This document shows positions 5,421 to 20,341 of a stretch of DNA of 20,341 bases, in pieces; position 1 is the stretch's first letter, and each line of letters opens with the position of its first letter. The position numbers and the translations under genes were made by a program. Where the stretch lies: positions 1 to 20,341 of IMG/VR virus record IMGVR_UViG_3300032116_001628; one strand, 5' to 3'. The notes under the pieces were generated by a model. The model was given only the letters and a program-made list of their open reading frames with translations, searched no databases and had not been told where the DNA came from. Origin of the DNA: a virus.

Positions 5421-5759
5421 TTACATTGAACCTGTTAACCAAGGTGCTGTTTGAACTAATACAGGAGGATTAATTTGATTTTCTATTTGTTGATATACAC
5501 TAGCAGTATATTGATTCATTTTTTCTTCACCCATAGAAGCAGTCATCCAATTGTATACTGTATTATAAGTTAAATCATTAAATGGGATAAAAGTAGATCC
5601 TGATTCGTATGTTATAGCTTGAGTTCCTATACAAGATCCTTGGTATGATCCAGTTGATCCATAAAGTTGCCAGTGAACTAAGAATACTACATCAGTTTGT
5701 CCTGATGCTGTTGGGTATGATTCTAATGGATTGAAATTCCAAGTGTAATTTATAGCCAT
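5421..5759 (-). CDS. Small conserved phage protein behind the fibre
   Basis: A 112-residue protein with the pattern MAINYTWNFNPLESYP, TDVVFLVHWQLYGSTGSYQGS, GTQAITYESGSTFIPFNDLTYNTV, and a C-terminal helix with QIENQINPPVLVQTAPW. I recognise this as a small family seen beside tail-fibre genes in T4-like marine phages (recalled as DUF7936; not verified here). Its function is unknown; by position it is a virion or fibre-assembly component. It begins 2 bases after the fibre stop codon, so translation is probably coupled to the fibre. No Shine-Dalgarno. Confidence 0.7.
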   Translation of the reverse strand: MAINYTWNFNPLESYPTASGQTDVVFLVHWQLYGSTGSYQGSCIGTQAITYESGSTFIPFNDLTYNTVYNWMTASMGEEKMNQYTASVYQQIENQINPPVLVQTAPWLTGSM

Positions 5760-5761
5760 TA

Positions 5762-8700
5762 TTATTTATTATTTACTAAATAATTAATTTGGGTTTGTAG
5801 ATTGTTTATTTGCTTTTGCTGTTCTTTTATTGCCTCTATCAATAGTGGTACTAACTTCTCATATTGTACAGTTAAATAGTCTTCTCCTGTTATTGACTTG
5901 TCATTTCCATTATTATCGAATGGAGCTAATTTAACTGCTTCAGGAAGTACTGCTTGAACGTCTTGTGCAAATACGCCAACTAATGATTCTTCTGTGTTGT
6001 AGTTGGCTAATTCTTTTGCTTTATTATTCCAGTTATAAGTAAAGCCTATCAATTTTTCTACTTTCTCTAATGGTGTTTCTATAGACTTAATATTAGTCTT
6101 TAAACGTCTATCTGATGAGTATGCTACTATATCATTTGATGCATCTATTCTACCATCAGTCGCATTTGGTGCTACATTCACACCTAGAGCTCCTGTGTTA
6201 ACTCTAGCATCTCCTACTATATCTAGTCTATATGTTGGGTTCGTATTATTAATACCAACTTCACCACTAGATTTTAATGTAACTCTTTCTGATGTGTCTG
6301 AGCTTCTAATGTGTAGACCGCCAGTACCAAAATCCATATAATTTTCTGTACCGTTTAAATGCAGTCTAAATCTATTTCCTGAATCGGCATTATTACCCAT
6401 CCATATATTAGTAACAGAATCTGTTAAGAATAAGTCTCCTCCTGTTAATGTAAGTTTTGATCCTGGTGATACTGTGCCTATACCAACATTGGTGCCATTA
6501 TCAAATATTGGAACGCCTGTATTACCAATAGTAGTAGCAGAAGTAAATTTAGCTACATAGTTTGTTGTTCCTGATACAGCTACTGATGTACCACTAGTAC
6601 CTGAACTACCAGATGATCCAGGTCCACCAGTTTGTCCAGATGTTCCAGATGTGCCGCTACTTCCTCTAGTGCCAGATGTACCAGACGAGCCAGATGTTCC
6701 AGATGAGCCAGGTGCACCAGTTTGTCCAGATGTTCCAGATGAGCCAGGTGCACCAGTTTGTCCAGATGTTCCAGATGAGCCAGGTGCACCAGTTTGTCCA
6801 GATGTTCCAGAGCTACCAGATGATCCAGGTGCACCAGTTTGTCCAGATGTTCCAGAGCTACCAGATGATCCAGGTGCACCAGTTTGTCCAGATGTTCCAG
6901 ATGAGCCAGGTGCACCAGTTTGTCCAGATGTTCCAGAGCTACCAGATGATCCAGGTCCACCAGTTTGTCCAGATGTTCCAGATGTGCCGCTACTTCCTCT
7001 AGTGCCAGATGTACCAGACGAGCCAGATGTTCCAGATGAGCCAGGTGCACCAGTTTGTCCAGATGTTCCAGATGAGCCAGGGGCTCCATTTGCTCCACTA
7101 GTACCAGACGAGCCAGATGTTCCAGATGAGCCAGGGGCTCCATTTGCTCCACTAGTACCAGACGAGCCAGATGTTCCAGATGAGCCAGGGGCTCCATTTG
7201 CTCCACTAGTACCAGACGAGCCAGATGTTCCAGATGAGCCAGGGGCTCCATTTGCTCCACTAGTACCAGACGAGCCAGATGTTCCAGATGAGCCAGGGGC
7301 TCCATTTGCTCCAGATGTACCTGCGCTACCAGATGTTCCAGATGAGCCAGGGGCTCCATTTGCTCCACTAGTACCAGACGAGCCAGATGTTCCAGATGAG
7401 CCAGGGGCTCCATTTGCTCCAGATGTGCCGCTACTTCCTCTAGTGCCAGATGTACCAGACGAGCCAGATGTTCCAGATGAGCCAGGGGCTCCATTTGCTC
7501 CAGATGTACCTGCGCTACCAGATGTTCCAGATGAGCCAGGTGCACCAGTTTGTCCAGATGTTCCAGATGAGCCAGGGGCTCCATTTGCTCCAGATGTGCC
7601 TGCGCTACCAGATGTTCCAGATGAGCCAGGGGCTCCATTTGCTCCAGATGTGCCTGCGCTACCAGCTGTACCAGATGAGCCATTTGTTCCTGAACTTCCA
7701 GAGGTGCCTGAGCTACCTGAGGTTCCAGATGAACCTGTCGTGCCTGAACTTCCAGTTGTTCCACTGCTTCCTGAAGTTCCTGAGCTACCTCGTGTACCGG
7801 ATGATCCAGAAGATCCTGCAGATCCCGATGTACCTGAACTTCCTGCTGTACCTGAGCTACCAGCAGTACCAGATGAACCTGTCGTGCCTGAACTTCCTGT
7901 AGTACCAGATGAGCCATTTGTTCCTGAACTACCAGCTGTACCAGAGCTTCCTGAGGTTCCAGAACTTCCTGAGGTTCCGCTACTTCCTGTTGTTCCAGAA
8001 CTTCCTCGAGTACCTGATGTGCCACTGCTTCCTGCCGTACCTGAACTACCTGATGTGCCAGCTGAACCAGCAGTACCTGCACTACCAGATGTGCCAGAAC
8101 TTCCAGATGTTCCTGCACTACCACCAGTGCCTGAACTTCCTGTAGTACCTGATGAGCCATTTGTTCCTGAGCTGCCTGAAGTACCTGAGCTGCCTGAAGT
8201 ACTTGAACTACCAGATGTACCAGAGCTTCCTGTTGTTCCAGAACTTCCTGTCGTACCAGAGCTTCCTGATGTTCCTGAGCTACCTCGAGTGCCAGACGTG
8301 CCAGACGAGCCTGCAGATCCTGATGTTCCTGAACTACCTGAGGTTCCGCTACTTCCTGTCGTTCCAGAACTACCAGCGGTACCAGATGAACCGGTCGTAC
8401 CGCTACTTCCTGTTGAACCTGAACTACCTGCAGTGCCTGCTGAACCAGAGGAACCTGTTGTTCCAGAACTTCCAGAAGTTCCAGAAGTTCCAGAAGAGCC
8501 AGTAGTTCCTGAACTACCTGATGTACCAAATGTTTCACCTGATGTACCTGCAGTTCCTGAACTTCCTGCTGTACCTGAACTTCCTGTAGTGCCTGAACTT
8601 CCTGCAGTACCTGACGTGCCAGACGAGCCTGCTGAACCAGAACTTCCAGATGTGCCAGAAGTACCAGATGAGCCAGTTGTTCCTGAACTTCCTGTAGTGC

Positions 8701-10681
8701 CTGAACTTCCTGAGGTTCCTGAGCTACCTCGAGTGCCTGACGTGCCAGACGAGCCTGCTGAACCAGAACTTCCAGATGTGCCAGAAGTACCAGATGAGCC
8801 AGTTGTTCCTGAACTTCCTGCTGTGCCTGAGCTTCCTGATGTTCCCGAGCTACCTCGAGTACCTGATGTGCCAGACGAGCCTGCTGAACCAGAACTTCCA
8901 GATGTGCCAGAAGTACCAGATGAGCCTGTCGTGCCTGAACTTCCTGCTGTGCCAGAAGAACCGGCAGAACCAGTAGTACCAGCACTTCCAGACGTGCCAG
9001 AAGATCCTGACGAGCCAGAACTACCTGTAGTACCTGAAGTACCAAAAGTTTCTCCTGAAGTTCCTGCGGTACCTGATGAACCTGATGCCCCAGTCGCTCC
9101 AGAAGTGCCAGACGAGCCAGAACTTCCTGATGATCCTGATGTTCCTGAGCCTATTTGATAATCATTTATGCCATAGACTCTAAAACTACTTATTTTCCAT
9201 GTAGAAGTACCAGCTGTTTGAGTTATATCAACTGCTATGGTAACATTACCACCTGCTGTAAATGGCGCTACTGCTACTAGTGTTTGTCCAAATTCATGAA
9301 TATCACCTGCGCCACCTTCACCTTGTAACTCTATTGTTTTTCTTAAGGTGCCTCCATAAGACGCACTTACAATTAATGTAGCATCAGCATTAGTTGGAGA
9401 AATAAGTACAGCTTCTACCTCAGTCATAATCTGGGTGTATGTATTTGCCGCTAGCGTATAAGATTTTACACTTGCATTATCTACTGTACCTGTTGAGTCT
9501 GTTGTATCAAAGTATAATAAATTTATTGATCCAGTTATATCTAAAGCAGGAACAGATTGTCCTGATGTGCCTGATGTACCAGTTTGTCCAGAACTTCCTG
9601 CAGTACCGCTAGATCCAGATGAGCCTGTGCTACCACTAGTACCAGAGCTTCCCGCACTTCCATTTTGTCCAGATGTGCCTGACGAACCAGTCGTACCAGA
9701 AGAACCAGAACTTCCTGTTGTTCCAGACGAGCCTGCTGTACCTGTAGAACCTGAACTTCCTGAGGTTCCAGACGAACCTGCTGAACCAGATGTTCCAGAG
9801 CTACCTGAAGATCCTGATGAACCAGACGATCCATTTTGACCAGATGTTCCTGAACTTCCTGCCGTACCTGAAGAACCATCACCTCCTGATGCACCAGCTA
9901 AGTTAACTTCCCAATTAGAATATGTTCCTGTTCCCACAACTGTTGATGGAGTTGCGAATTCAAAATATCCTGTTATAGGATTATAGTCTACAATTTGAAC
10001 CTCTTCATAGTTAAAGATATCGTATGCAATAATTGCTGTCTGAGCAATTGAGTATGCTAGCCCTCCTTCAACATATATACTACCACTAACTCCAAGGAGT
10101 AATGAACTTGTAGAATTAGTTAAGTACCTATCTCCTGATAAACCAGCAGTTCCAGCTGTGCCAGCAGTTCCAGATGTTCCAGAAGATCCTGAGCTACCTG
10201 CTGTTCCTGTACTTCCTGACGATCCTGAGCTACCAGATGTGCCAGATGATCCAGAACTACCTGAAGTCCCAGAACTTCCTGATGTTCCGGATGAACCGTC
10301 ACTACCAGCAGTACCGCTAGACCCAGAAGTACCAGACGTGCCAGATGAACCTGCAGAACCAGCAGATCCTGCACTACCTGCAGTACCTGAAGTAAATGAA
10401 GTTGATGAGATAGGTTGGCCATTAAGAATTAATGAGCCTGTTATATTTACAGAACCTGTTACTTGAATACCACTACCTGATACTAATAAACTACCAGTTA
10501 TTTCAGCAGAGCCAGAAAAAGGAAAACCAGAACCACCAAATCCGCCAGTTCCATAGAAAAAACTGCCAGATGTATCTGCTACTACAACTCTTGTTGCTAG
10601 GGTATTTGGTTGTAGATTAACTTTGAGAGTATTAAATCTAGCATTACCATCTTGCCTAGGTGCTTCTATTCTAAATCCCAT
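5762..10681 (-). CDS. Giant collagen-like tail fibre with S74 chaperone domain
   Basis: A 1639-residue fibre. Residues 1-98 form a virion-side head with GSLxVSG-type repeats (57-88). Collagen-like Gly-X-Y blocks follow at about 99-183, 266-374 and 511-1364, separated by globular beta-rich modules at 184-265 and 375-510. The triplets are mostly GSS, GTS, GSA, GTA, GTT, with GAN, GAP and GQT near the C-terminal side and almost no charged residue. Residues 1367-1520 make a tip domain (NVGIGTVSPGSKLTL, then a beta-rich region). Residues from 1523 are the Peptidase_S74 self-cleaving chaperone, with the catalytic SDRRLK (1523-1528), GVFAQDVQAVLPEAV and a C-terminal coiled coil. The family is known to trimerise the fibre and then cut itself off at this Ser. 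The gene is directly downstream of the glycosylation cluster, which may modify its Ser/Thr residues. Confidence 0.93.
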   Translation of the reverse strand: MGFRIEAPRQDGNARFNTLKVNLQPNTLATRVVVADTSGSFFYGTGGFGGSGFPFSGSAEITGSLLVSGSGIQVTGSVNITGSLILNGQPISSTSFTSGTAGSAGSAGSAGSSGTSGTSGSSGTAGSDGSSGTSGSSGTSGSSGSSGTSGSSGSSGSTGTAGSSGSSGTSGTAGTAGTAGLSGDRYLTNSTSSLLLGVSGSIYVEGGLAYSIAQTAIIAYDIFNYEEVQIVDYNPITGYFEFATPSTVVGTGTYSNWEVNLAGASGGDGSSGTAGSSGTSGQNGSSGSSGSSGSSGTSGSAGSSGTSGSSGSTGTAGSSGTTGSSGSSGTTGSSGTSGQNGSAGSSGTSGSTGSSGSSGTAGSSGQTGTSGTSGQSVPALDITGSINLLYFDTTDSTGTVDNASVKSYTLAANTYTQIMTEVEAVLISPTNADATLIVSASYGGTLRKTIELQGEGGAGDIHEFGQTLVAVAPFTAGGNVTIAVDITQTAGTSTWKISSFRVYGINDYQIGSGTSGSSGSSGSSGTSGATGASGSSGTAGTSGETFGTSGTTGSSGSSGSSGTSGSAGTTGSAGSSGTAGSSGTTGSSGTSGTSGSSGSAGSSGTSGTRGSSGTSGSSGTAGSSGTTGSSGTSGTSGSSGSAGSSGTSGTRGSSGTSGSSGTTGSSGTTGSSGTSGTSGSSGSAGSSGTSGTAGSSGTTGSSGTAGSSGTAGTSGETFGTSGSSGTTGSSGTSGTSGSSGTTGSSGSAGTAGSSGSTGSSGTTGSSGTAGSSGTTGSSGTSGSSGTSGSAGSSGTSGTRGSSGTSGSSGTTGSSGTTGSSGTSGSSSTSGSSGTSGSSGTNGSSGTTGSSGTGGSAGTSGSSGTSGSAGTAGSAGTSGSSGTAGSSGTSGTRGSSGTTGSSGTSGSSGTSGSSGTAGSSGTNGSSGTTGSSGTTGSSGTAGSSGTAGSSGTSGSAGSSGSSGTRGSSGTSGSSGTTGSSGTTGSSGTSGSSGTSGSSGTNGSSGTAGSAGTSGANGAPGSSGTSGSAGTSGANGAPGSSGTSGQTGAPGSSGTSGSAGTSGANGAPGSSGTSGSSGTSGTRGSSGTSGANGAPGSSGTSGSSGTSGANGAPGSSGTSGSAGTSGANGAPGSSGTSGSSGTSGANGAPGSSGTSGSSGTSGANGAPGSSGTSGSSGTSGANGAPGSSGTSGSSGTSGANGAPGSSGTSGQTGAPGSSGTSGSSGTSGTRGSSGTSGTSGQTGGPGSSGSSGTSGQTGAPGSSGTSGQTGAPGSSGSSGTSGQTGAPGSSGSSGTSGQTGAPGSSGTSGQTGAPGSSGTSGQTGAPGSSGTSGSSGTSGTRGSSGTSGTSGQTGGPGSSGSSGTSGTSVAVSGTTNYVAKFTSATTIGNTGVPIFDNGTNVGIGTVSPGSKLTLTGGDLFLTDSVTNIWMGNNADSGNRFRLHLNGTENYMDFGTGGLHIRSSDTSERVTLKSSGEVGINNTNPTYRLDIVGDARVNTGALGVNVAPNATDGRIDASNDIVAYSSDRRLKTNIKSIETPLEKVEKLIGFTYNWNNKAKELANYNTEESLVGVFAQDVQAVLPEAVKLAPFDNNGNDKSITGEDYLTVQYEKLVPLLIEAIKEQQKQINNLQTQINYLVNNK
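6606..7081 (-). repeat. 36/45-nt tandem units and a 143-bp exact duplication
   Basis: Within the C-terminal side of the fibre repeat, 6606-6748 and 6939-7081 are identical over 143 bases and 333 bases apart. Between them the GQTGAPGSSGTSG-coding unit starts at 6711, 6747, 6783, 6828, 6873, 6909 and 6954, so spacings are 36 or 45 bases. All are multiples of 9, keeping the Gly-X-Y phase. High DNA identity marks recent duplication by slippage or recombination. Confidence 0.9.
7081..7296 (-). repeat. 54-nt tandem repeat, four near-exact units
   Basis: Units begin at 7081, 7135, 7189 and 7243; the next, from 7297, starts alike and then diverges. Each codes for the 18-residue unit GANGAPGSSGTSGSSGTS. 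Inspection shows no base change among these units, so this block is the most recently expanded part of the fibre gene. Confidence 0.9.
8616..8993 (-). repeat. 126-nt higher-order repeat, three copies
   Basis: A segment starting GTGCCAGACGAGCCTGCTGA on the plus strand recurs at 8616, 8742 and 8868, exactly 126 bases (42 residues, 14 triplets) apart, with some synonymous differences between copies. Each copy is bounded by a Gly-Thr-Arg triplet on the protein side. This is an older, more diverged layer of repetition than the 54-nt block. Confidence 0.8.
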
Positions 10682-10698
10682 CGTGGTTTGATCTTTTA

Positions 10699-10717
10699 GT
10701 ACTTATTATATAAGTAC
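10699..10717. other. Perfect 7-bp inverted repeat in the fibre leader
   Basis: GTACTTA (10699-10705) and TAAGTAC (10711-10717) flank a 5-base loop, 17 bases before the fibre ATG. On the coding strand no T-run follows it, so it is not a typical terminator. It might be an RNA hairpin in the fibre leader or an operator; low stability is expected because the stem is A/T-rich. Confidence 0.5.
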
Positions 10718-10744
10718 ATTGACTAATGTTTACTTACTATATTA

Positions 10745-10754
10745 TATAAATATT
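10745..10754 (-). promoter_or_regulatory. ATATTTAT-type upstream motif before the fibre gene
   Basis: The coding strand reads AATATTTATA in the 100-base gap between the heptosyltransferase gene and the fibre gene. It is 63 bases before the fibre ATG, farther than at other genes, with the 7-bp inverted repeat in between. It may give the fibre a separate start from the glycosylation block. Confidence 0.42.
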
Positions 10755-10781
10755 CATTGAATCAAATCCAGAGTTTTATAA

Positions 10782-12860
10782 CTATAGTTCGTTTTTAATT
10801 AGCCTAATTACTTCTTCACCAGAAATAGTTTTACTACATTCAAATTGTCTTTGGGTGTTTTTATGTTTAGGACACCAATTCCAATCTCCTGGATCTAACT
10901 TATGCGTATTGAAGCAACCTCTACAGAAGCCATCTTTTGTATAAACTCTTATGCAATCTTCAAATTCAGTAACAGGATTAGAGAATCCAGATATAACGCA
11001 TGTTCTAGTACCTAGTGCCCAACTAAGCCAACTAAGTCCACTACTAATACCTATAAACATTTTTGATCGTTGTAGTATATCAATAGTAGCTTCTATGCTA
11101 GTATCATTTAAATATTCAACTCCAATAGGGTTTTTGTTACCCATATAACCGTCTTCTTCTTTAGATATTAGAATTACTCTATATCCTAGACTCTTTACAT
11201 AGTCAACTACTTTTTGCCAACCTGTTTTATTATTCCAATATTTAGATTGTGCTGTACTATGTACTGCAATTGTAACTATTTTTTCTTTCTTTACATTTTT
11301 CTTTACGGCCATTCTAGGCTTTACTTCTTTATAGTCAAGACCTAGAATATCAGATGCAGTCTTTTGTAGTTGTATATTTTTAAACTCACTAGAATGTCTA
11401 TTATAATCAATTGAACCGTCTTCTTTATAGAACCAACCAATTAAATACATAGCGTGTAGATTAGTAACTTCTACTGCTGGTTCAACAAATTGAAATTCAG
11501 GATATTCTTTCTCAAAGAACTTATTCCAGAATGTAGATACTATCATCTCACAACCATGCTTCTTTTCAAACTCTTTTATTTGAGGGAACCATGCTAATGT
11601 ATCACCTAAAGATTTAGATTCTAAAGCTACATAAACTCTTTTTGCTTTTAAGTTCATTTTATATTCAAAGACACTTTTACCATCATCTACTTTTATTTTC
11701 CAATCAACAAAGTAACTAACATTGGCTCTGATCCAATGATCTTTTTTAATCTTTCCTGAATGGTGAATTATACCGGTCTTTTGATCTATAAATTCTACGT
11801 TATATTCTTTGTCTAGGCCTCCTTTTATTTCTAAGTAAGGACCATTTATGAAATGGATATTAAAATCAGGTTCAGGAACTTTTGATTCTATGGCTAATTT
11901 TTTAATGGTATTATAACTATTAATAAGTTGACTAGTCATATTGTCTTCATATTTTTCTAATAATTCAATAGTCCTATTTTTCCAAGACCTTTCTATAGCC
12001 GTTGTTCTTGCTAATTTAGACTGTCTTTGATATTTTATAGGATCTAATAATTTAATTATCTTTTCTTTTATTTCTTCTGTATTTCTTTCTACTCTTACAA
12101 GTCCTTTTAACTCATTATTATCTTCATACGTACCTATAACTGGTAAACCTGATGCCATTGCTTCAAGCAGGGTTAAATTAGGATGGCCGGCCTCTAAAAT
12201 AGACGGGTGTAAAAAGATAGTATGCTGTTTATATAAGTCTCTTAACGCGTCTTCTGTAAGATCATATAGTACTGTTAGTTTATCATAAGGAAGTTTTTCT
12301 CTTTCAAAATAAGATTGATTATTTTTAGGACCTGCTATAGTTAAAGGTAACTCAAGCTCTTTAGCAGCTTGTATAGCATATCCAAAACCTTTTCTATCTT
12401 CAGCTTGATCATGTATAAAACCGTTGTTTGCTACGCATAAAAGTCTATGTTCTTTATTACCAGAAGGAGTAAAGTAGTCAGTATTAACTCCATGTGAAAA
12501 GTATTCTGGTATTCCTTCAAAATAGTCTACTAAATACTTAGCAGGTACAAACGCTTTCTTTGCATTCTTTATAGCCTCTAGGTTTTCTTTGTAAGCATGT
12601 GAATCTTTACCATATAAGTAAGCATGGTGATCATGCATAGTGAAATAATAAGGAATACCTTTCTTATGCGCCAGGTTTGCAAGATTTGCCACATGAATAT
12701 GAACTATATCATAATCCTTTATATCGTCCAGAAATAGGATCTGTGAGTCGTGGCCTAGTTCTTGGAGGCATTTATGTGTTTCCCATATAATTTTCTCTAC
12801 TGCACCCCAACCATTAGGTGGAATTGGTATTAATCCTGGCGTAACATTGATTATTTTCAT
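10782..12860 (-). CDS. GT4 glycosyltransferase fused to TibC/Aah-like O-heptosyltransferase
   Basis: A 692-residue two-enzyme chain. Residues 1-310 are a GT4 glycosyltransferase with the N-terminal GWGAVEKI loop, NNGFIHDQAEDRKGFG and LHPSILEAGHPNLTLLEAMA; the two glutamates (E223, E233) are two residues farther apart than the usual EX7E. Residues 335-395 are a beta-rich segment. Residues 405-692 match the autotransporter O-heptosyltransferase family (TibC, Aah): ALESKSLGDTLAWFP (412-426), STFWN, IAVHSTAQSKYWNN (531-544) and GISSGLSWLSWALG (604-617). C646, C649, C663 and C675 correspond in order to the four cysteines known to bind iron in TibC. That family adds heptose to Ser/Thr of repetitive surface adhesins. 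The gene starts 5 bases after the previous stop and is the last gene before the fibre, which I infer is its acceptor. Confidence 0.87.
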   Translation of the reverse strand: MKIINVTPGLIPIPPNGWGAVEKIIWETHKCLQELGHDSQILFLDDIKDYDIVHIHVANLANLAHKKGIPYYFTMHDHHAYLYGKDSHAYKENLEAIKNAKKAFVPAKYLVDYFEGIPEYFSHGVNTDYFTPSGNKEHRLLCVANNGFIHDQAEDRKGFGYAIQAAKELELPLTIAGPKNNQSYFEREKLPYDKLTVLYDLTEDALRDLYKQHTIFLHPSILEAGHPNLTLLEAMASGLPVIGTYEDNNELKGLVRVERNTEEIKEKIIKLLDPIKYQRQSKLARTTAIERSWKNRTIELLEKYEDNMTSQLINSYNTIKKLAIESKVPEPDFNIHFINGPYLEIKGGLDKEYNVEFIDQKTGIIHHSGKIKKDHWIRANVSYFVDWKIKVDDGKSVFEYKMNLKAKRVYVALESKSLGDTLAWFPQIKEFEKKHGCEMIVSTFWNKFFEKEYPEFQFVEPAVEVTNLHAMYLIGWFYKEDGSIDYNRHSSEFKNIQLQKTASDILGLDYKEVKPRMAVKKNVKKEKIVTIAVHSTAQSKYWNNKTGWQKVVDYVKSLGYRVILISKEEDGYMGNKNPIGVEYLNDTSIEATIDILQRSKMFIGISSGLSWLSWALGTRTCVISGFSNPVTEFEDCIRVYTKDGFCRGCFNTHKLDPGDWNWCPKHKNTQRQFECSKTISGEEVIRLIKNEL

Positions 12861-12865
12861 ACTCT

Positions 12866-13843
12866 TTATTTAAATCTTACAAAGCTTTTACTTCTTAATA
12901 TTCCTTCTCTTGTATATTTTTTAGTGTAGTTACCTACAGTCATAGTAAAGGTATCACTATTAGAATCTATGACTTCAGCTAAATATGTTTTAGATAATGG
13001 TAGATTCTTTGATACTACATCATTTATTTTAAAATCAATAAACTCATTAGAGTCTCCTGGGCTATTATAGATATATACGTAAGCAAGCTTATCTGTATTT
13101 TCTACTTTTACTATTCTTAGCTCAAAAGGATGTTGAATACCGTCTTCTCTAAAAGATGTTAAAGATGTTTTACTATCTTTAAAATATTCACTAAAATGCG
13201 CAGATTTTATTATCATTACATTATTTAGCTTATCTTGATTTTTTAATGATCGATATAAAAAGTTTTCTAAAATACCAAAACTACCTATTTTATAACAAAC
13301 ATCATTATATTCATCTACATTTTTAGGATCTGGGAAGTTATTTAAAAAATACTCAGTATCGCAGCAAAAAATATTAGACTCTAAAACAGGATCTGATTCT
13401 AATGAAAAAAACCAACCTTTTTTATTTTCTAAATATGCTTGGTTTGTAAGACTTTTAATCTTTTCAATATCTGATACTGAATATTCTGAATCTGATTCTA
13501 TATAGTAAAAGGTTTTATAGTAGTCTCTAGCAAATCTTAATCCATTCATTATTAGTCTATATATAGCAAAACCAGGATGGGTTGATGATCCTTCTATATA
13601 TCCTTGAAAATAGAACTGGTCACAATCTCCGTAAATATAAACGTCTTCATTTAGAACCATTTCATTTCGATAGTCATAAATGTAATAGTTAACCATATTT
13701 TGTGTTTCAATATCAGCAGGATAATGAGTACAAAGCATGATGTCAAAATGTTCTCTAAAACTATTTATACAATTCTTTAATATCTGTTTAGATTTTTCAG
13801 AAGACGGATATGATCCTAATATAACTAAGTCTTTTTTATTCAT
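12866..13843 (-). CDS. Putative GT-A-type glycosyltransferase with C-terminal beta domain
   Basis: A 325-residue protein. I place the start at the ATG at 13843, which overlaps the upstream TAA as TAATG, rather than at an in-frame TTG farther upstream. It opens DLVILGSYPSSEKS, a pattern typical of a phage/bacterial sugar-transferase group, and has a YIYDYRNEM segment (54-62), a HPGFAIYRLIMNGLRFAR segment and YYIESDSEYS (113-122), where ESD could serve as the DxD-like metal site. Residues from about 250 look like a small beta-sandwich (YVYIYNSPGDSNEFIDFKIND). Its organisation parallels the 361-residue gene two genes upstream (14934-16019), so I treat the two as distant paralogues. Donor and acceptor are unknown; the setting says glycan assembly. 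Confidence 0.68.
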   Translation of the reverse strand: MNKKDLVILGSYPSSEKSKQILKNCINSFREHFDIMLCTHYPADIETQNMVNYYIYDYRNEMVLNEDVYIYGDCDQFYFQGYIEGSSTHPGFAIYRLIMNGLRFARDYYKTFYYIESDSEYSVSDIEKIKSLTNQAYLENKKGWFFSLESDPVLESNIFCCDTEYFLNNFPDPKNVDEYNDVCYKIGSFGILENFLYRSLKNQDKLNNVMIIKSAHFSEYFKDSKTSLTSFREDGIQHPFELRIVKVENTDKLAYVYIYNSPGDSNEFIDFKINDVVSKNLPLSKTYLAEVIDSNSDTFTMTVGNYTKKYTREGILRSKSFVRFK

Positions 13844-14937
13844 TACTTCATTATGTTTATAAGACAATGATAAGAAGAGTGATAATAGATAGGATACATA
13901 GATGATATTCTATTTATAATCTCTTGTGTATATTGATTTTGTGCTTGGTCCCATATTACTAACTGTACTTTTTTAACAATATCTGCTTCTCTAGTAGATG
14001 TAAACTTTTCTAAATCATCGATAGTCTTAATAGCAAATACAGCATAGTCTTCATTACCATCTATCTTATTTATATTAAAATCATGATCAAAAAATAACTC
14101 TTTTAGTATCTGCTTTTTCTTATGGTCTATAGAATAGTCAATATATGATATTTTTAATTGCTCTGTTGAATTATTTAGATGGTGGTCCATCAAGCATACT
14201 GACTCTGAGTGTATTGGTTCAAAGTATCTGTTTAATGTATCTATGTCTTTATCTACTCTCCTTTCATTTACTCTTTTAATCAATTCAGAACCTTCTTCTA
14301 CTGCTTCATTTCCATATACTGAATGAGAGATAGAATTATCTCTATAGTTATAATAGTATAAATTCCTAGGAAGGTTTAGTATCTTTCCTTGTTCTTCTAA
14401 TGTACACAGTATTGACAAGTCATTATAGTAATACTTCATCCAGTTATTAGGATTAAAGTCATATTTTATATTAGGATTATTTCTCCATGCTCTTAAATGG
14501 GTTAGATATCCACAAGCCATGTTTGGCTTATCAATATAGTTAGGATTATGAAAATTCATCCAGTCTCCATTCTCTTTAAATAAATTTCCACAAGAGGTTA
14601 TTGCTATTGTATCAGGGAATTTTGTAAAGAAATGATGATAAACTTCTAAAGCTTTAGGTAGTGGATAATCATCTTGATCTGCTTGTACTATTATTTCAGC
14701 TTCACGGCAAAAACGTTGAGGATTGTAAAACATTTCTTTTTTATGACTCTGCTCTACATATTTAACTCGCCTATCATTTTTAGAGATATATAACAAGATC
14801 TCTTTTGCGTCATCAGATGAAAAGTCATCAGTCACTACCCACTCCCAATTTGTATACGTTTGTGCTTTTATTTTTTCATATAAACGAGATACAAATTTAG
14901 AACCATTATAAAAACTAGTGACTATTGTAAATTTCAT
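13843..14937 (-). CDS. GT2 family glycosyltransferase
   Basis: A 364-residue protein whose first 220 residues are a GT2 (GT-A fold) transferase: TIVTSFYNGSKFVSRLY at the N-terminus, the nucleotide-binding TDDFSSDD (36-43) and the metal-binding ADQDD (86-90). Residues from about 250 form a smaller unassigned C-terminal part. It would transfer a sugar from a nucleotide-activated donor, acting in the host cytoplasm during infection. The ATG overlaps the preceding stop by the classic ATGA, and its own stop overlaps the next start (TAATG), so it is translationally coupled on both sides. Specificity cannot be read from the sequence. Confidence 0.85.
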   Translation of the reverse strand: MKFTIVTSFYNGSKFVSRLYEKIKAQTYTNWEWVVTDDFSSDDAKEILLYISKNDRRVKYVEQSHKKEMFYNPQRFCREAEIIVQADQDDYPLPKALEVYHHFFTKFPDTIAITSCGNLFKENGDWMNFHNPNYIDKPNMACGYLTHLRAWRNNPNIKYDFNPNNWMKYYYNDLSILCTLEEQGKILNLPRNLYYYNYRDNSISHSVYGNEAVEEGSELIKRVNERRVDKDIDTLNRYFEPIHSESVCLMDHHLNNSTEQLKISYIDYSIDHKKKQILKELFFDHDFNINKIDGNEDYAVFAIKTIDDLEKFTSTREADIVKKVQLVIWDQAQNQYTQEIINRISSMYPIYYHSSYHCLINIMK

Positions 14938-16019
14938 TTAAATACTATTTCTGGTTGATAGTGGTAATTGGGTATATCTATATTCTGTATTTGAACAGCA
15001 TTATTTTCAAAATAAACATTGAATGTCTTATGATAAGGACTATTTTGATGCCTTATTTTTACTTGGCTAACATTTTTAACATTTGATAAATATTCATATC
15101 TCCACTGACCTGTTATTTCAAAATATAAACTAATAGTATTAATTAAATTATTTTCATGATCGTAAATATCAAAATATGCAGTTGTAGGAGAATCTGATGA
15201 AACGTTCTGCGCTGCTACACATAGATTATTTGGGTCGTTTTTATCTATATTTTTAATTATCATAACATCGGAAAGTAAACCACTAAAAACACCAACTGGT
15301 GATTGGTGTATATTAAAATGTGTATCATTAAATGTTTCATTCATAAGTTTACCATCTTGGTATAAAACATTTAGATCTTGCCTTTGTATAAGTCTATATA
15401 TAAACTCTTCTAATATTATGGCTTTATTTTCTAGACCTATTTCTTTTAGGGCTTTTTTATAGTCATATTCATTTTTAATATGCCCAAATATTTTAGTAAA
15501 AGCATCAGATGAATAGAATATTAAATGAGTTGAAATATCTATTTTATTATTTCCATAATCATTTTTATATGCATAAAAATCATATTTATTATCTTCTATA
15601 TCTTTACATACTTCTTTTATTTTTTTAAGAGAGCTAAACCCAAAAAAATCGTCAAACTCAAATCTAATAACATTATTATATCCTAAAGCTTTAGCTATAC
15701 CAGCACCTTTTATCATTGATCTTAAGACAGTTATACTATGCTTTTGAAAACCGTCTACAACAAAATTCATGGCGATTCCTCCATAATGATTCCACCATAT
15801 CATAGGTTCAGGTTTTTCATATTCTAGTTCCATTAACTGATTCTCTGGATCATAATAGTAATGGTCTACGTGCTCATAAAAGTCTAACGGGAGAGGTTTT
15901 GGAGACGTTACTAATATCTTAAAACCAATACTTTTTAATCTCTTAAGATTCTTATATGCAGTTAACTCAGCCTCTCTACTAGTTAAGTATAAGTGTATAT
16001 GTATGACAAAACTATTCAC
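14934..16019 (-). CDS. Putative glycosyltransferase with C-terminal beta domain, GTG start
   Basis: A 361-residue protein starting at GTG (16019), which overlaps the upstream TAG as TAGTG; no suitable ATG lies near. It begins SFVIHIHLYLTSREAELTAYKNL, then KILVTSPKPLP and HYYYDPENQLMELEYEKP (53-70), a pattern shared with a sugar-transferase-like group in phages. RFEFDDFF (119-126) is the candidate metal-binding segment. Residues 90-140 align loosely with the 325-residue gene downstream, and from about 260 both have a strand-rich accessory domain (TAYFDIYDHENNLINTISLYF). I am confident it belongs to the glycan cluster, less so about its exact fold. The AGAGGG before the GTG lies inside the conserved 3' end of the upstream gene and may be chance. 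Confidence 0.65.
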   Translation of the reverse strand: MNSFVIHIHLYLTSREAELTAYKNLKRLKSIGFKILVTSPKPLPLDFYEHVDHYYYDPENQLMELEYEKPEPMIWWNHYGGIAMNFVVDGFQKHSITVLRSMIKGAGIAKALGYNNVIRFEFDDFFGFSSLKKIKEVCKDIEDNKYDFYAYKNDYGNNKIDISTHLIFYSSDAFTKIFGHIKNEYDYKKALKEIGLENKAIILEEFIYRLIQRQDLNVLYQDGKLMNETFNDTHFNIHQSPVGVFSGLLSDVMIIKNIDKNDPNNLCVAAQNVSSDSPTTAYFDIYDHENNLINTISLYFEITGQWRYEYLSNVKNVSQVKIRHQNSPYHKTFNVYFENNAVQIQNIDIPNYHYQPEIVFK

Positions 16020-19000
16020 TATTTGACCCTCTTTAAGTATCCATCAGGATTGAATGTAGCATTGGTTCCAAAGAAGTCACATAAACTTCTATCTACTATA
16101 AAGTCATCATTAGTTTGTAAGAATTCATCAATAGCCCTTCTAGGTCCGCCGCCATATCTATCTGCTGCGCCAGTAAATGAAACTACACCATCTTCAACAA
16201 TAAAATAAGACTCTTTAGAAACAACTTTATGAAACTTGTTCAGTGCCTTTAATACATCTTCGTATGTGTGAGCAGCATCATCAATAACAAGTATTTTCTC
16301 AAATCCTTTTGTATTCTCTTCTATATCGTATGCATCAAACCCTCCATAGAAAAATCTGATCTGTCCATGATTAAATACTTTTTGATCGTATACTTCATTG
16401 TGTAGATTAATTGTATGGACTTGACCTTTACCTAATAGATACAATAAGTCTGCATAATATAAAGCGCCGCCACCATTTAATGTACCAATTTCAATGATTA
16501 AATCTGGTTTGATATCCATGATTATCATCTGGTATAATACATAGTCCATTGGGCATTTAAGGTATGGAACACCTTTATATTGCACTCTAAAATGTCCATT
16601 ATAGACATCAAATAAGTTAATGTCTGACTTATCAACTAATACTTGTTTATTCACGTTAGGGAAATTTTCTCTATGAACTAATCTTTGTTTTGCACCTTGC
16701 TCTTCTTTCCAGTCTACAGACTTCTCACCAAAGTGTCCATCAGGTGTAACTCTGTAAACTCCAGACGGCCATTTTTCATTCTTACATTTACCATATTGAA
16801 GCATGAGTAAACTTAATGCCCAATATCCATCAAATATGTCTTGATTAAAGAACCAATCAGGAAATACCGGATATTGTAAAATAGGGTTTTTAAACATGAA
16901 GCCATAAGATACGCAATTATGATCTACTTGATCTCTTAAAATAACATCTTCTTTGAGTCCATATAGGTTAAAAGAAGGTAGAGTTTCATCTACATTATCT
17001 TTTTCAAACTGATAATATCCGGTACAGTGTATAGAATATTCTGGATTGTTGTCTAAGAAGTTAACTTGTTTTTGTAATTTATAATCATCTGTATAAAAAT
17101 CATCTGCATCTAAAATAGTAACATATTTAGATCTAGTCTTACTCAAAATGTGATACAGCATTTTAGTATTTGGTCCTAGATTAGTTTCATTTCTTGATAT
17201 AATTACATTTGATGTATCTTTATATTTTTCAATAATATCGTATGTAGTATCTGTTGATTGATCGTCACAAATAATTAAGTCAAAATTAAATAGTGTATTT
17301 TGTTTTAGAACACTATCTATAGCTTTTTCTACATATTTTTCTTTATTATATGTAGGAATAATGACAGTAACTAGTTTGTCTTTAGGACTTTTTTTAGCAA
17401 ATATAGTTCCTATGGCTGATGAATTATATGACTCTTTTATACTTTGGTTGTTATTACTATTTTGATTCCTTATCTGATCTATATCATAACCTGCTTTGAC
17501 TAATTTTGTTACAAGCTTTTCTGCTCTACCATCATAATTATCATGGTATTCAATCAAGAAGTTATCTATTTTATCAAATATTTCAGGCTCTAAGTTATCA
17601 ATAATATCATACTCAGCACCTTCAATGTCCATTTTTAATAAAGATATTCTATCAATATTATTTTGATCAAAGAATGTCTTTAGCGATACTGCTGGTACAA
17701 CTATCTTTTCTACTTTTGAACCATTATTAATAATGTGATCTTCAGATATACTTCCAATTGTAGTATTATTAGGATCTATATAAAAGACAAGGTCTTCATC
17801 TTTAGTATAGACAGCTTTATCTATAACTTCCACATTTATGCCTTTAACTAACTGATTTAAGTTAATTAAAGACTCTTGATTAGGTTCAAAAGCATATACT
17901 TTTTTAGCGCCTTTCTTTATTGCTAAAAGTGAAAATAGTCCGCTATTTGCACCAATATCAAATACAGTTTCCATCTTATCTAACTCATAACAATCATATT
18001 TGTTATCAACAAACATTTCATTATAGTTGTTAAATAAACAATCAAAATGATTCTTGATGTCTAGCTTAAATTTGCCACTAGGTTTAGGGTTTTTTACAAA
18101 TATAGTCTTACTAAACGCTATATTGTTTTCTTTATCGTAGAACTCAACTAAGAATGATCCAAAGTGAGGATCTTTTGCAAAATCAAATGTATGAATAGGA
18201 ATTGGAATAATCCACCATGATGAACTAGGGCCAAATTCTGCCTCTGTCCAATACATAGGAGCATTAGAGTCTTTGTCTTTAATACTAATCTTATAATAAC
18301 TATTATTGTTCTTTTTATATGTAATATTGAACTTATTCTCACTACTATCAAATGTTATATCAAAATATTCGTCTACTTTATTAATCTCCATCTGTAATTT
18401 GTTTACTATCTTTTGTATGTTTTTAGACTTGTCATTAAAATCTAGGTATTCTATATTATTGTAGTCATCAAAATAGTTGAGGTATACATCTAGATTAAAA
18501 ATCAATGATGGAGTTTTCCAACTAATAGCCTCTCTAATTACTAGAGGCATTGTTTCTTTATCTGTATTTGATCCTCTAGATGTAAATAAAAACAAGTCTG
18601 CCATTTGAAAGAATAAGTCTACATCAGTTCTTTCGCCCCACCAAGTACAGTTACTTGGAAAGTTTTTCATAAGAGGCTCCCAATAGTATTGAAAATTGTC
18701 TGCTTGGTTACCAATAAAGTGAAACTGAATAGGATAGTCTTTAAGCATTCTAGCATACTCTATTACTTCTGCTTGATTCTTTCTAGGTGTAAATAGTCCT
18801 ACATTTATAATATGTTTCTTATTAGGATCTAAACCTAACTGTTTCATTAACTCTTCTCTAATATAAGTTCTATCTTTATACTCTATAGGATACTCTACTA
18901 ACTCACAAGGTATATTCAACCTCTGATATTCGTTTATTTGGTATTGACTTACCATCATAAACTTATCTGGAAAGTGTACTTTATTATCTACATTGTAGCT

Positions 19001-19354
19001 AGAATCATGTGATGTTTCAATAATAATATAGTCTCGATCTTTAGAATATAGCTCGCAGGCTAATTCATATGCCATAAACATTTCTGGGATCTCCTGAAGG
19101 TGTACAAAGTCAGGTTTGATATCTTCTATGGTTTTAAGAAGATCATGCTTATTCGCGCCTAATGTGATCAGGCGACTACCTAATATATCTAGGATTCTAT
19201 TCCTTTGAACTACTAATTTTCCTCCTGTAACATCATCCCACTCAACACAATAAACGTCAAAGTCCTTTATTAAGGACTCTATTTGTTTGTACAAGTATTG
19301 GGGCATTCCACCCGTAGATAGGTGAGGTGCAATAAACAATAACCTTTTTTTCAT
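16019..19354 (-). CDS. Multidomain enzyme: GT4, beta domain, FkbM MTase, GT2, CmcI-type MTase
   Basis: A 1111-residue chain from ATG at 19354 (an in-frame TTG just before it is less likely). Domains in order: GT4 (about 1-325; PHLSTGGMPQY loop, NVGLFTPRKN, E267 and E275 as EX7E); a strand-rich linker (about 330-422); FkbM-type SAM-dependent O-methyltransferase (about 463-600; VFDIGANSGLFSLLA, AFEPN, MDIEGAEYDI); GT2 (about 662-870; TVIIPTYNKEKYVEKAI, CDDQSTD, LDADDF); and a CmcI/rhamnosyl O-methyltransferase-like domain (about 930-1111; LIIEIGTLNGGGALYYADLL, VIDDAAHTYEDVL, FIVEDGVVS, GGGPRRAIDEFL, PDGYLKRV). It appears able to add two sugars and methylate twice. It leads the coupled glycan operon and has an ATATTTAT-type motif 17 bases upstream. 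No frameshift or stop is seen. Confidence 0.88.
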   Translation of the reverse strand: MKKRLLFIAPHLSTGGMPQYLYKQIESLIKDFDVYCVEWDDVTGGKLVVQRNRILDILGSRLITLGANKHDLLKTIEDIKPDFVHLQEIPEMFMAYELACELYSKDRDYIIIETSHDSSYNVDNKVHFPDKFMMVSQYQINEYQRLNIPCELVEYPIEYKDRTYIREELMKQLGLDPNKKHIINVGLFTPRKNQAEVIEYARMLKDYPIQFHFIGNQADNFQYYWEPLMKNFPSNCTWWGERTDVDLFFQMADLFLFTSRGSNTDKETMPLVIREAISWKTPSLIFNLDVYLNYFDDYNNIEYLDFNDKSKNIQKIVNKLQMEINKVDEYFDITFDSSENKFNITYKKNNNSYYKISIKDKDSNAPMYWTEAEFGPSSSWWIIPIPIHTFDFAKDPHFGSFLVEFYDKENNIAFSKTIFVKNPKPSGKFKLDIKNHFDCLFNNYNEMFVDNKYDCYELDKMETVFDIGANSGLFSLLAIKKGAKKVYAFEPNQESLINLNQLVKGINVEVIDKAVYTKDEDLVFYIDPNNTTIGSISEDHIINNGSKVEKIVVPAVSLKTFFDQNNIDRISLLKMDIEGAEYDIIDNLEPEIFDKIDNFLIEYHDNYDGRAEKLVTKLVKAGYDIDQIRNQNSNNNQSIKESYNSSAIGTIFAKKSPKDKLVTVIIPTYNKEKYVEKAIDSVLKQNTLFNFDLIICDDQSTDTTYDIIEKYKDTSNVIISRNETNLGPNTKMLYHILSKTRSKYVTILDADDFYTDDYKLQKQVNFLDNNPEYSIHCTGYYQFEKDNVDETLPSFNLYGLKEDVILRDQVDHNCVSYGFMFKNPILQYPVFPDWFFNQDIFDGYWALSLLMLQYGKCKNEKWPSGVYRVTPDGHFGEKSVDWKEEQGAKQRLVHRENFPNVNKQVLVDKSDINLFDVYNGHFRVQYKGVPYLKCPMDYVLYQMIIMDIKPDLIIEIGTLNGGGALYYADLLYLLGKGQVHTINLHNEVYDQKVFNHGQIRFFYGGFDAYDIEENTKGFEKILVIDDAAHTYEDVLKALNKFHKVVSKESYFIVEDGVVSFTGAADRYGGGPRRAIDEFLQTNDDFIVDRSLCDFFGTNATFNPDGYLKRVK

Positions 19355-19371
19355 CAACCTAAGTCTTTATT

Positions 19372-19423: not shown

Positions 19424-19747
19424 TTAAACTAAAGTTAAATTAAGAAGCCCAGTAACTACTATAAAAGCATCATTATTAATGTCTCCACCCATAGAACCCC
19501 AATTTGTGTAAGTAGTTCCTGATACTTCTATTGTATCTTTTAGTAATATTTCAGTAATAGTATTAGTAACTGTGGCTACTTGTTCATCAGGTTGCGATAC
19601 TTCTTCTTGTACTTCTATTACCGATATTAGATAGTATTTGAATACGGCTTTATTACTTAGATTATCATAGCTTATTACCATGTCAAAGTAATTAGCAGTA
19701 ACGTTTTGTCCTCTAACAGGAAAAGTGTATGGTTGAATTTGTCTCAT
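19424..19747 (-). CDS. Small tail-associated protein, unknown function
   Basis: A 107-residue protein beginning MRQIQPYTFPVRGQNVTAN and ending in NDAFIVVTGLLNLTLV. The pattern QIQPxTxxxxGQ at the start, a central strand pair (NKAVFKYYLISV), a TYTNWG segment and a terminal LNLTL strand resemble short virion or tail-fibre accessory proteins in T4-like marine phages, from memory. There is no membrane segment or catalytic motif. It stands between two glycosyltransferase genes, with a 23-base gap to the upstream gene that contains the ATATTTAT-type motif, so the glycan genes are interleaved with virion genes. Confidence 0.6.
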   Translation of the reverse strand: MRQIQPYTFPVRGQNVTANYFDMVISYDNLSNKAVFKYYLISVIEVQEEVSQPDEQVATVTNTITEILLKDTIEVSGTTYTNWGSMGGDINNDAFIVVTGLLNLTLV

Positions 19748-19761
19748 TTAAATTATTTACG

Positions 19762-19771
19762 TATAAATATT
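19762..19771 (-). promoter_or_regulatory. ATATTTAT-type upstream motif before the 107-residue gene
   Basis: The coding strand reads AATATTTATA, 14 bases before the ATG at 19747. It overlaps the stop codon of the upstream gene by one base. Putative late promoter by recurrence. Confidence 0.43.
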
Positions 19772-20341
19772 TACTGATTATCAAATTCTTTATACATTTC
19801 ATTCCATTTTGCATCTGATTCTTTAGGTTCCCATCCTGATATCCATGGTCCTCCTAGTGTATAGTGGAGTATTGTTGCTTTATTAAGTAATAAATTATCA
19901 TTTATATCTACTAAATGATTCCACTTATTATCTAATTCACCTATTTCTTCATCTTTTAACCATTTGAAAGCATGTAAATCCCTACCAGGCCATTTATTTA
20001 AATTATGTAATGTTAATTCTTCATGTGCAGGATGATTACAATTAATTAACATAACAGATGACCAGTTTTTTCTGTTATAATAAACAGAGGCTTGATCTAC
20101 CATTTTTATTTCACTACTCCCCACCTTTTGTTGGTGTTTAACAACCATCACAGCATACTGTGGATCTGCTTGATCAAATAATTCATCTATATTTTCTAAA
20201 GCAATAATATCACAATCAGCAAACAAAACCCAACCTTTTTCCATAAATGGAATTGCAAATCTAGAAATAGAAAATTCAGTAGTTTGAGGAGCTTCTGATA
20301 TAGGGCACCACATTTGGTTTCCTCTCCATTCAATAGGTCTA
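19771..20341 (-). CDS. DxD glycosyltransferase (GT8-like), 3' part only
   Basis: The reading frame is open to the right edge of the window and upstream codons add RPIEWRGNQ before the Met at 20313, so the true start lies outside and the Met is internal. About 189 residues are visible. WCPISEAPQTTEFSISRF, GWVLFADCDII (with the DCD metal-binding motif), YAVMVVKHQQ, RKNWSSVMLINCNHPAH, GRDLHAFKWL and a C-terminal HYTLGGPW segment follow the order known for a GT8-related group that transfers sugars with a DxD metal site. It is probably another member of the glycan cluster, transcribed just upstream of the 107-residue gene. Donor and acceptor are unknown. Confidence 0.78.
   Translation of the reverse strand, partial: RPIEWRGNQMWCPISEAPQTTEFSISRFAIPFMEKGWVLFADCDIIALENIDELFDQADPQYAVMVVKHQQKVGSSEIKMVDQASVYYNRKNWSSVMLINCNHPAHEELTLHNLNKWPGRDLHAFKWLKDEEIGELDNKWNHLVDINDNLLLNKATILHYTLGGPWISGWEPKESDAKWNEMYKEFDNQ

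Follow-up and report, generated by a model that had tools for sequence, protein, structure and literature searches.

The window analysed here, the complete 20,341-base IMG/VR record IMGVR_UViG_3300032116_001628, comes from a contractile-tailed phage and carries a block of glycosyltransferase and methyltransferase genes ending just before the gene of a giant collagen-like fibre. Comparison with related phage and bacterial loci makes it likely that a TibC/Aah-type domain in the last enzyme of this block O-glycosylates the phage's own fibre, and that the rest of the block probably extends and methylates the glycan. Self-glycosylation of the collagen-like fibre appears well supported by these sequence comparisons, and its acceptor, step order, sugar identity and function are given below as we infer them. 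The enzyme block sits within the tail module, so that this set of glycosyltransferases lies in or beside a structural module.

A TibC-type enzyme gene next to a Gly-Ser/Thr fibre gene

The original prediction, made from the letters of the window alone, had described a 1639-residue fibre with about 350 Gly-X-Y triplets, mostly Ser/Thr, and counting agrees closely. Counting only runs of at least six triplets gives 341. Their 682 X and Y positions hold 369 Ser and 179 Thr, together 548 (80%), against 18 Pro, and the commonest triplets are GSS (128) and GTS (85). The protein matches the Pfam Collagen model (PF01391) over its cut-off at 457.1 bits, ends in a C-terminal Peptidase_S74 chaperone domain and contains non-repeat inserts. 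Because the Ser codons of the array are drawn from both codon families (90 AGY and 279 TCN), serine is held at the protein level, beyond mere DNA repetition. Antisense to the collagen repeat lies a plus-strand open frame of 835 codons, rich in Pro, Glu and Val (window positions 6651-9158), which arises as a side effect of the Gly-X-Y coding pattern and can mislead gene prediction.

The protein encoded immediately upstream of the fibre, 692 residues long, reaches 284.6 bits against the TIGR04414 model, whose curated cut-off is 200, and is matched by the two TibC sequences in the PDB with an E value of 2e-56. In the available part of the TibC study (PMC4358343), Asp-110 is the catalytic base, a set of Cys residues forms an iron finger, Thr-226, Lys-230 and Trp-305 belong to the sugar site, and Arg-286 contacts the adenine; the TibC type is there an established protein glycosyltransferase type, and TibC modifies Ser, not Thr, of its repetitive acceptor. 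When 63 distinct phage domains (the window's and 62 others) were aligned to TibC, Asp-110, Lys-230, Trp-305, Cys-339, Cys-342 and Cys-358 were kept in all 63 and Cys-370 in 62, and position 226 was Thr in 57 and Ser in 6. The window domain itself has the catalytic Asp, all four iron-finger Cys and the donor-site Thr-226, Lys-230 and Trp-305, as the predicted TibC/Aah likeness would lead one to expect. Since catalytic, donor-site and iron-finger residues are conserved, the transfer machinery looks intact. At the position of Pro-300, 31 of the 63 phage domains have Ser, 30 have Gly and 2 have Ala; the window has Ser, like AAH, an enzyme that takes both heptose forms (PMC4358343, available part). 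Models of autotransporters matched none of the window proteins scanned, the neighbour of the enzyme being the collagen-like fibre instead.

Four intergenic gaps of -1, -4, -25 and +5 bases run from the gene of the 1112-residue enzyme to that of the 692-residue protein, and 100 bases then separate the latter from the fibre gene, in keeping with the predicted coupled block directly before the fibre. The other domains named in the original prediction were also recovered: two glycosyltransferase family 4 (GT4) and two family 2 (GT2) domains by profile, two proteins with a GT-A-like fold by structure model, and two sugar-methyltransferase-type domains, FkbM and RMNT_CmcI, both in the 1112-residue protein. 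Hypermodification of DNA, that is, glucosylation of the phage's own genome, is a known use of phage glycosyltransferases in the available part of PMC12619734, yet no DNA-modification family was among the over-cut-off matches and the studied members of the TibC type are protein-directed, which makes this purpose of the block hardly credible.

Phage loci selected by the enzyme

Relatives of the 692-residue protein or of its TibC part were collected at 53 phage loci. As these were picked by the enzyme alone, the comparison of neighbouring repeat composition is unbiased by a collagen query. Gly-Ser/Thr runs, defined as five or more Gly-[Ser/Thr-type] triplets within the fetched DNA, were present at 17 of the 53 TibC loci, compared with 0 of 120 random loci, 2 of 80 relatives of the tail sheath and 1 of 79 Pro-collagen loci; in the two positive sheath relatives the sheath matches that of the window at 100% identity, and their contigs stop inside the fibre or its repeat. 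The Ser+Thr share of the X and Y positions was 0.73-0.97 in all 16 collagens near TibC that could be measured, against 0.19-0.41 in random phage collagens (five measurable of six records) and 0.02-0.34 in the 79 Pro/charged collagens, where a low share is expected from the query used. Among 50 TibC records, PF01391 was over its cut-off in 27 and weak in one.

Strict adjacency of TibC and collagen, considered as a rule, was rejected, with a run at only 17 of the 53 loci and the enzyme standing before the sheath at some of them. Enzyme and collagen genes are neighbours in the window and in the bacterial two-gene units described below, and this arrangement is not universal in phages. A control of records with the 1112-residue enzyme and no TibC yielded seven loci; of the three not otherwise fetched, only L143 lacks TibC, which is present in L145 and L146. 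With so few loci, and TibC in two of the three new ones, this gave no usable control.

Two observations concern other genes at these loci. The sheath-like proteins beside TibC at L023, L025 and L029 are enlarged (766, 760 and 1317 residues, compared with 581 in the window) and may contain inserted extra domains. At L015, L016 and L019, two adjacent frames upstream of the enzyme block have LFPTPLY or LFPSPLF near their start, which may point to 2-oxoglutarate-Fe(II) oxygenases; a hydroxylase near a collagen system, if real, would be worth a look.

Phage loci selected by the collagen

In the reverse direction, the window repeat was used as query and its best matches gave at least 76 loci, from which the 50 longest records (at least 30 kb) and 23 shorter ones were scanned; three of the 76 loci fall in records obtained before (those of L163, L153 and L059). 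Of the 50 longest Ser/Thr-collagen records, 29 have a TIGR04414 match over its cut-off, as do 4 of the 23 shorter ones (here and for the counts on these records below, among the matches listed). None of 34 Pro/charged-collagen records of at least 30 kb has one (14 + 20, with one weak match of 18.7 bits), nor has any of 36 random records of at least 30 kb, 6 of which have collagen over cut-off; among sheath relatives it is 2 of 32. The co-occurrence survey that the original prediction had proposed came out in favour of the pairing. Completeness of the flanks matters: where the collagen is flanked by 10 kb or more on either side, 20 of 24 records have the enzyme, always within 16 kb, and where the flanks are shorter 9 of 26 do, many of the enzyme-negative records breaking near the collagen.

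Fisher tests on these comparisons gave values of about 1e-9 and smaller, with records treated as independent though they are related; the 28 loci at which the domain is visible collapse to 16 groups at 90% identity and 9 at 70%. This bears on a further reading, in which large phages of some habitats gather glycosyltransferases and collagens without any functional link. The records are not independent, near-duplicates inflate the counts, and the random sample was matched for neither habitat nor host, all of which such an ecological explanation can use. It does not account for the distance of 0.6-15.2 kb between enzyme and collagen in 27 of the 29 records (in G085 a second collagen match, L204, lies 9.1 kb from the enzyme, and in G109 the pair is at opposite contig ends), nor for a repeat composition that follows the enzyme, and the bacterial adjacency is independent of it; we regard it as very improbable.

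A second, weak TIGR04414-like frame of about 310-320 residues was seen 2-3.5 kb from the main enzyme in G083, G084, G085, G086, G087, G090, G091, G092, G093, G095, G105 and G207. It is possibly another enzyme of the GT9 type in the same pathway.

Among named phages, a tblastn search with the TibC part matched 4 of 50,697 phage records, two of which (LR756501 and LR756503) are equal in length; three of the four were looked at more closely. There are 72 collagen matches in LR756501 (735 kb). Microcystis phage Mel-JY01 (PP395634) encodes a 1226-residue protein, annotated as FkbM, that reaches 317 bits against TIGR04414, and a Ser/Thr collagen frame of about 1000 residues lies 1.7 kb before this TibC-type gene. 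The repeat part of that collagen (L429:2-3049) is unannotated, with hypothetical genes called on the opposite strand, and its last stretch is annotated as a hypothetical protein; the opposite-strand genes match an IgA-binding protein model through their repeats, far under its cut-off.

Bacterial two-gene units

An alignment of six phage domains was used to scan bacterial genomes and returned 18 loci. In five genomes (Methylobacter luteus, Methylobacter sp. BlB1 and metagenome-assembled genomes (MAGs) of a Polaromonas, a gammaproteobacterium and a member of the Arenicellales) the TibC-like gene adjoins a gene for a small protein with a Gly-Thr-Ser array that looks, by eye, secreted or lipoprotein-like; in the Arenicellales MAG (L443) the array stands directly before the enzyme. 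A PF01391 search of nine bacterial genomes placed the only collagen site at the TibC-adjoining gene in four (M. luteus, Polaromonas, the gammaproteobacterium and Arenicellales, positions being matched by hand), made that gene one of two sites in BlB1, and found none in three of the nine.

In the order to which M. luteus belongs, 11 of 201 genomes have TIGR04414 over cut-off, four at about 655 bits and seven at 304-327 bits. Three of the four high-scoring enzymes have an AIDA-stalk neighbour, the fourth standing beside weak cadherin-like and RTX matches, and for six of the seven phage-like enzymes a (Gly-Thr-Ser)n protein is encoded no more than 1.5 kb away. Neighbour type thus follows enzyme type, with (Gly-Thr-Ser)n beside the phage-like and an AIDA stalk beside the autotransporter-type enzymes; the stalk was confirmed at L447, L448, L453, L454 and L455, and no AIDA match was found at L445, L446 and L456. 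The seven include M. luteus and BlB1, and because three of them are close relatives the lineages are fewer than seven. PF01391 is over cut-off in 65 of the 201 genomes, so that co-occurrence in a bacterial genome is weak alone and only adjacency and composition count. Of 30 collagen loci of this order, 29 have a Ser+Thr share of at most 0.50, and the sole one above it adjoins TibC.

An unrooted tree of 91 TibC-type domains, its sampling set by phage queries, has nine rows on one side of a branch with 100/100 support (TibC, the five AIDA-stalk rows and three others whose neighbours gave no AIDA match), and the window lies outside them; AIDA-stalk neighbours were seen at enzymes of this branch only. 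Inside the phage diversity, seven bacterial rows of the (Gly-Thr-Ser)n type cluster with one phage and the bacterial row G434 (95/88). Elsewhere, the gammaproteobacterial and Arenicellales rows form a pair (100/99). We consider it possible, without leaning towards it, that the family is large, mostly phage-borne and dedicated to O-glycosylating Gly-Ser/Thr collagen-like repeats, with bacterial two-gene units of enzyme and secreted (Gly-Thr-Ser)n protein in at least two branches and the autotransporter heptosyltransferases as an offshoot with a changed acceptor. Four of the 18 bacterial loci, the MAG contigs L438, L440, L441 and L450, carry Ser/Thr collagen as well as TibC genes. L438 and L450 have sheath and tube homologues, and the 1112-residue enzyme has relatives in L438 and L440 (a weak one in L441), so that these contigs are probably phage DNA binned with bacteria.

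The same comparisons bear on whether the block instead alters the glycans of the host surface (lipopolysaccharide or O-antigen) in the infected cell, for example to exclude other phages. Two of the proteins have GtrB-like PHROG matches, and the available part of PMC7029224 holds a published opinion of this kind on the glycosyltransferases of the pelagimyophage host-recognition cluster. Against this, the TibC-type domain belongs to a protein glycosyltransferase type (PMC4358343, available part), the enzyme tracks Gly-Ser/Thr proteins in bacteria as well as in phages, and TibC-less sheath relatives that reach past the fibre show no Gly-Ser/Thr repeats. Modification of the host surface is, on this balance, decidedly unlikely.

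Evidence against fibre glycosylation and the nature of the sugar

Besides the relatedness of the records and the unmatched random sample, several findings weigh against glycosylation of the fibre by the TibC-type domain. The remaining 22 of the 50 TibC records, many of them fragments, have no PF01391 match, nor has the 176-kb TibC record G037 or LR756504, a 636-kb phage with the TibC part, any collagen match in the searches made; a Gly-Ser/Thr run occurs in the fetched stretch in only 9 of 23 TibC lineages at 70% identity. Conversely, TibC is missing at four Ser/Thr collagens that have 10 kb of flank on either side (L159, L178, L198 and L206). Among bacteria, the Thioalkalivibrio MAG (G236) has collagen, none of it on its TibC contig L449, and G434, one of the seven genomes with a phage-like enzyme, shows no (Gly-Thr-Ser)n neighbour in the 14 kb read. 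Finally, Arg-286, the adenine contact tied to ADP-sugar specificity, is replaced by Thr in the window and kept in only 22 of the 63 phage domains, gaps nearby leaving the register of this column not beyond doubt.

The last point divides the earlier claim that fibre Ser/Thr are heptosylated. The link to the acceptor was supported, through co-occurrence, proximity, repeat composition and the bacterial two-gene arrangement. Heptose was not: in addition to the changed Arg-286, HldE (TIGR02199), the sole ADP-heptose synthesis gene searched for, was over cut-off in 0 of 41 TibC records, with four weak matches. A 'cytidylyltransferase like protein' of Mel-JY01, taken up as a lead to ADP-heptose, was dropped, having no NCBIfam match.

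At L015, L016, L019 and L022 the enzyme blocks precede the sheath and tube genes in fetched stretches that lack collagen, and this too counts against the fibre as acceptor, although all four records have collagen elsewhere. It would fit a different acceptor in the tail, either Ser/Thr-rich fibres of beta type or the tail sheath, with Ser/Thr collagen as a mere frequent companion in the module; the fibres adjacent to the enzyme at L011 and L030, which consist mostly of a Ser/Thr-rich non-collagen repeat (Gly-X-Y in only 7 and 6 triplets), point the same way. Such an acceptor would leave unexplained both the Ser/Thr richness of collagens in TibC phages relative to others and the bacterial two-gene units, in which no tail gene was seen, and we judge it unlikely while still giving it some weight.

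Some features of the TibC-less collagen stretches are recorded here for their own sake. DUF2827 proteins, which may be an alternative enzyme, are encoded at L159:15710-16933 and L198:5751-6983, the latter stretch also having a GT4 protein. A bacteriorhodopsin-like gene (PF01036) lies at L206:672-1463 in a viral-listed record with Ser/Thr collagen, and this record may not be a phage.

Proposed pathway and organisation of the block

If the collagen-like fibre is the acceptor, the TibC-type domain of the 692-residue protein would put a sugar directly on Ser, and perhaps Thr, of its repeats in the infected cell, the chains being glycosylated as they are made, by analogy with TibC. The other glycosyltransferase domains would probably lengthen the glycan, with the fused GT4 domain and the GT-A-like proteins as natural extenders, and the two methyltransferases would probably methylate it before the fibre joins the virion; what points to capping by methylation is the methyltransferase families. 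The outcome may be a hydrated, protease-resistant or host-facing fibre. Stiffening of the fibre and a part in receptor binding, both named in the original prediction, are further candidate functions.

Sheath, enzyme-block and fibre genes are all on the minus strand of the window (Table 1). In order of transcription, the cut GT8-like gene is followed by those of the 107-residue protein, the 1112-residue enzyme, the 361-residue protein, the GT2 enzyme, the 333-residue protein and the 692-residue protein with GT4 and TibC-type domains, and then by the fibre gene. The gene ending at 16019 has two possible starts, TTG at 19357 or ATG at 19354, and the true start of the 333-residue protein may be the ATG at 13843. 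A short protein encoded on the same strand as the tail sheath is presumably the tube, to judge from its position.

Table 1 Features of the window discussed in the text (coordinates in bases)
Feature	Coordinates	Strand	Basis or proposed role
Tail sheath	1359..3104	-	Profile match
DUF7936 protein directly downstream of the fibre	5421..5759	-	
Collagen-like fibre, 1639 residues, proposed acceptor	5762..10681	-	Pfam and triplet count
692-residue protein: N-terminal GT4 and C-terminal TibC/Aah-type (GT9, TIGR04414) domains	10782..12860	-	Proposed initiating O-glycosyltransferase
333-residue protein, predicted GT-A-like fold with beta C-terminal part	12866..13867	-	Structure model
364-residue GT2 glycosyltransferase	13843..14937	-	PF00535, 54.8 bits
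361-residue protein, predicted GT-A-like fold	14934..16019	-	Structure model
1112-residue enzyme: GT4, FkbM methyltransferase, GT2 and RMNT_CmcI (rhamnosyl O-methyltransferase-type) methyltransferase	16019..19357	-	Profile matches
107-residue protein without assigned function, between glycosyltransferase genes	19424..19747	-	
GT8-like protein, truncated by the record end, possible extra block member	19771..20340	-	

The 333- and 361-residue proteins have no meaningful family match (one DUF2913 match lies far under its cut-off). Their predicted models, with a mean predicted local distance difference test score of 78.7 and 85.5, respectively, find mostly GT-A glycosyltransferases as nearest solved structures, a likeness at the level of fold only; for the 361-residue model the best matches include the capsid glycosyltransferase domain of PBCV-1 (2p6w), with a template modelling score of 0.64 by target length and 0.39 by query length. 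The 107-residue protein has no family match, its 11.4 bits to a tape-measure PHROG not being significant, and the GT8-like protein scores 20.1 bits, below the Pfam cut-off, and 122.6 bits against phrog_28018.

Relation to known systems and implications

The closest known systems are the bacterial autotransporter heptosyltransferases TibC and Aah (TIGR04414; 4rap, 4rb4), with which the window enzyme shares the catalytic domain, its Asp, the iron-finger Cys, the Thr/Lys/Trp sugar-site residues and a gene position beside a repetitive Ser/Thr-rich partner. It differs from them in its fusion to GT4, in being phage-borne, in the lost adenine-contact Arg, in having a Gly-X-Y collagen neighbour and not an AIDA-type stalk, and in lying outside the TibC/AIDA-stalk branch. 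On neighbour, branch and Arg-286 it falls outside the autotransporter heptosyltransferase group, and by analogy it would work like TibC on another acceptor.

Other viruses supply partial parallels. The glycosyltransferase of chlorovirus PBCV-1 serves a capsid protein with an Asn-linked glycan. It is likewise a virus-encoded enzyme for a virion protein, and its structures (2p6w, 2p72, 2p73) are among the top matches of the 361-residue model. The PBCV-1 system differs in involving no collagen. The mimivirus collagen glycosyltransferases are not known to be of the TibC type. Mimivirus, a virus of eukaryotes, does glycosylate collagen-like proteins with its own glycosyltransferase, the sugar being placed on hydroxylysine (PMC9546862, available part). 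Mycobacteriophages have glycosylated virion proteins (Freeman et al. 2023, as cited in PMC12619734), modified at the C-termini of capsid and tail-tube proteins, and the available part of that source names no collagen-like acceptor. Outside viruses, the SgtA-BclA3 pair of Clostridioides difficile is similar in that the glycosyltransferase gene directly precedes the gene of a collagen-like protein that receives sugar on its repeats, and differs in that SgtA is a GT-A-type UDP-GlcNAc enzyme and the acceptor a spore protein with GPT triplets (PMC7157674, available part). No paper linking TibC-type enzymes, phages and collagen was found in searches of the open-access PMC literature.

If fibre glycosylation by the TibC-type domain is confirmed, phages would own a collagen glycosylation system, and there would be an explanation for how Gly-Ser/Thr fibres of great length can function with almost no proline. 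Phage glycosyltransferases that the available parts of the literature otherwise ascribe to host-surface or DNA modification would gain an acceptor, and the acceptors of the TibC family would widen from beta-helical adhesins to collagen-like repeats. The simple bacterial two-gene systems would allow a direct test of fibre-type glycosylation by such enzymes.

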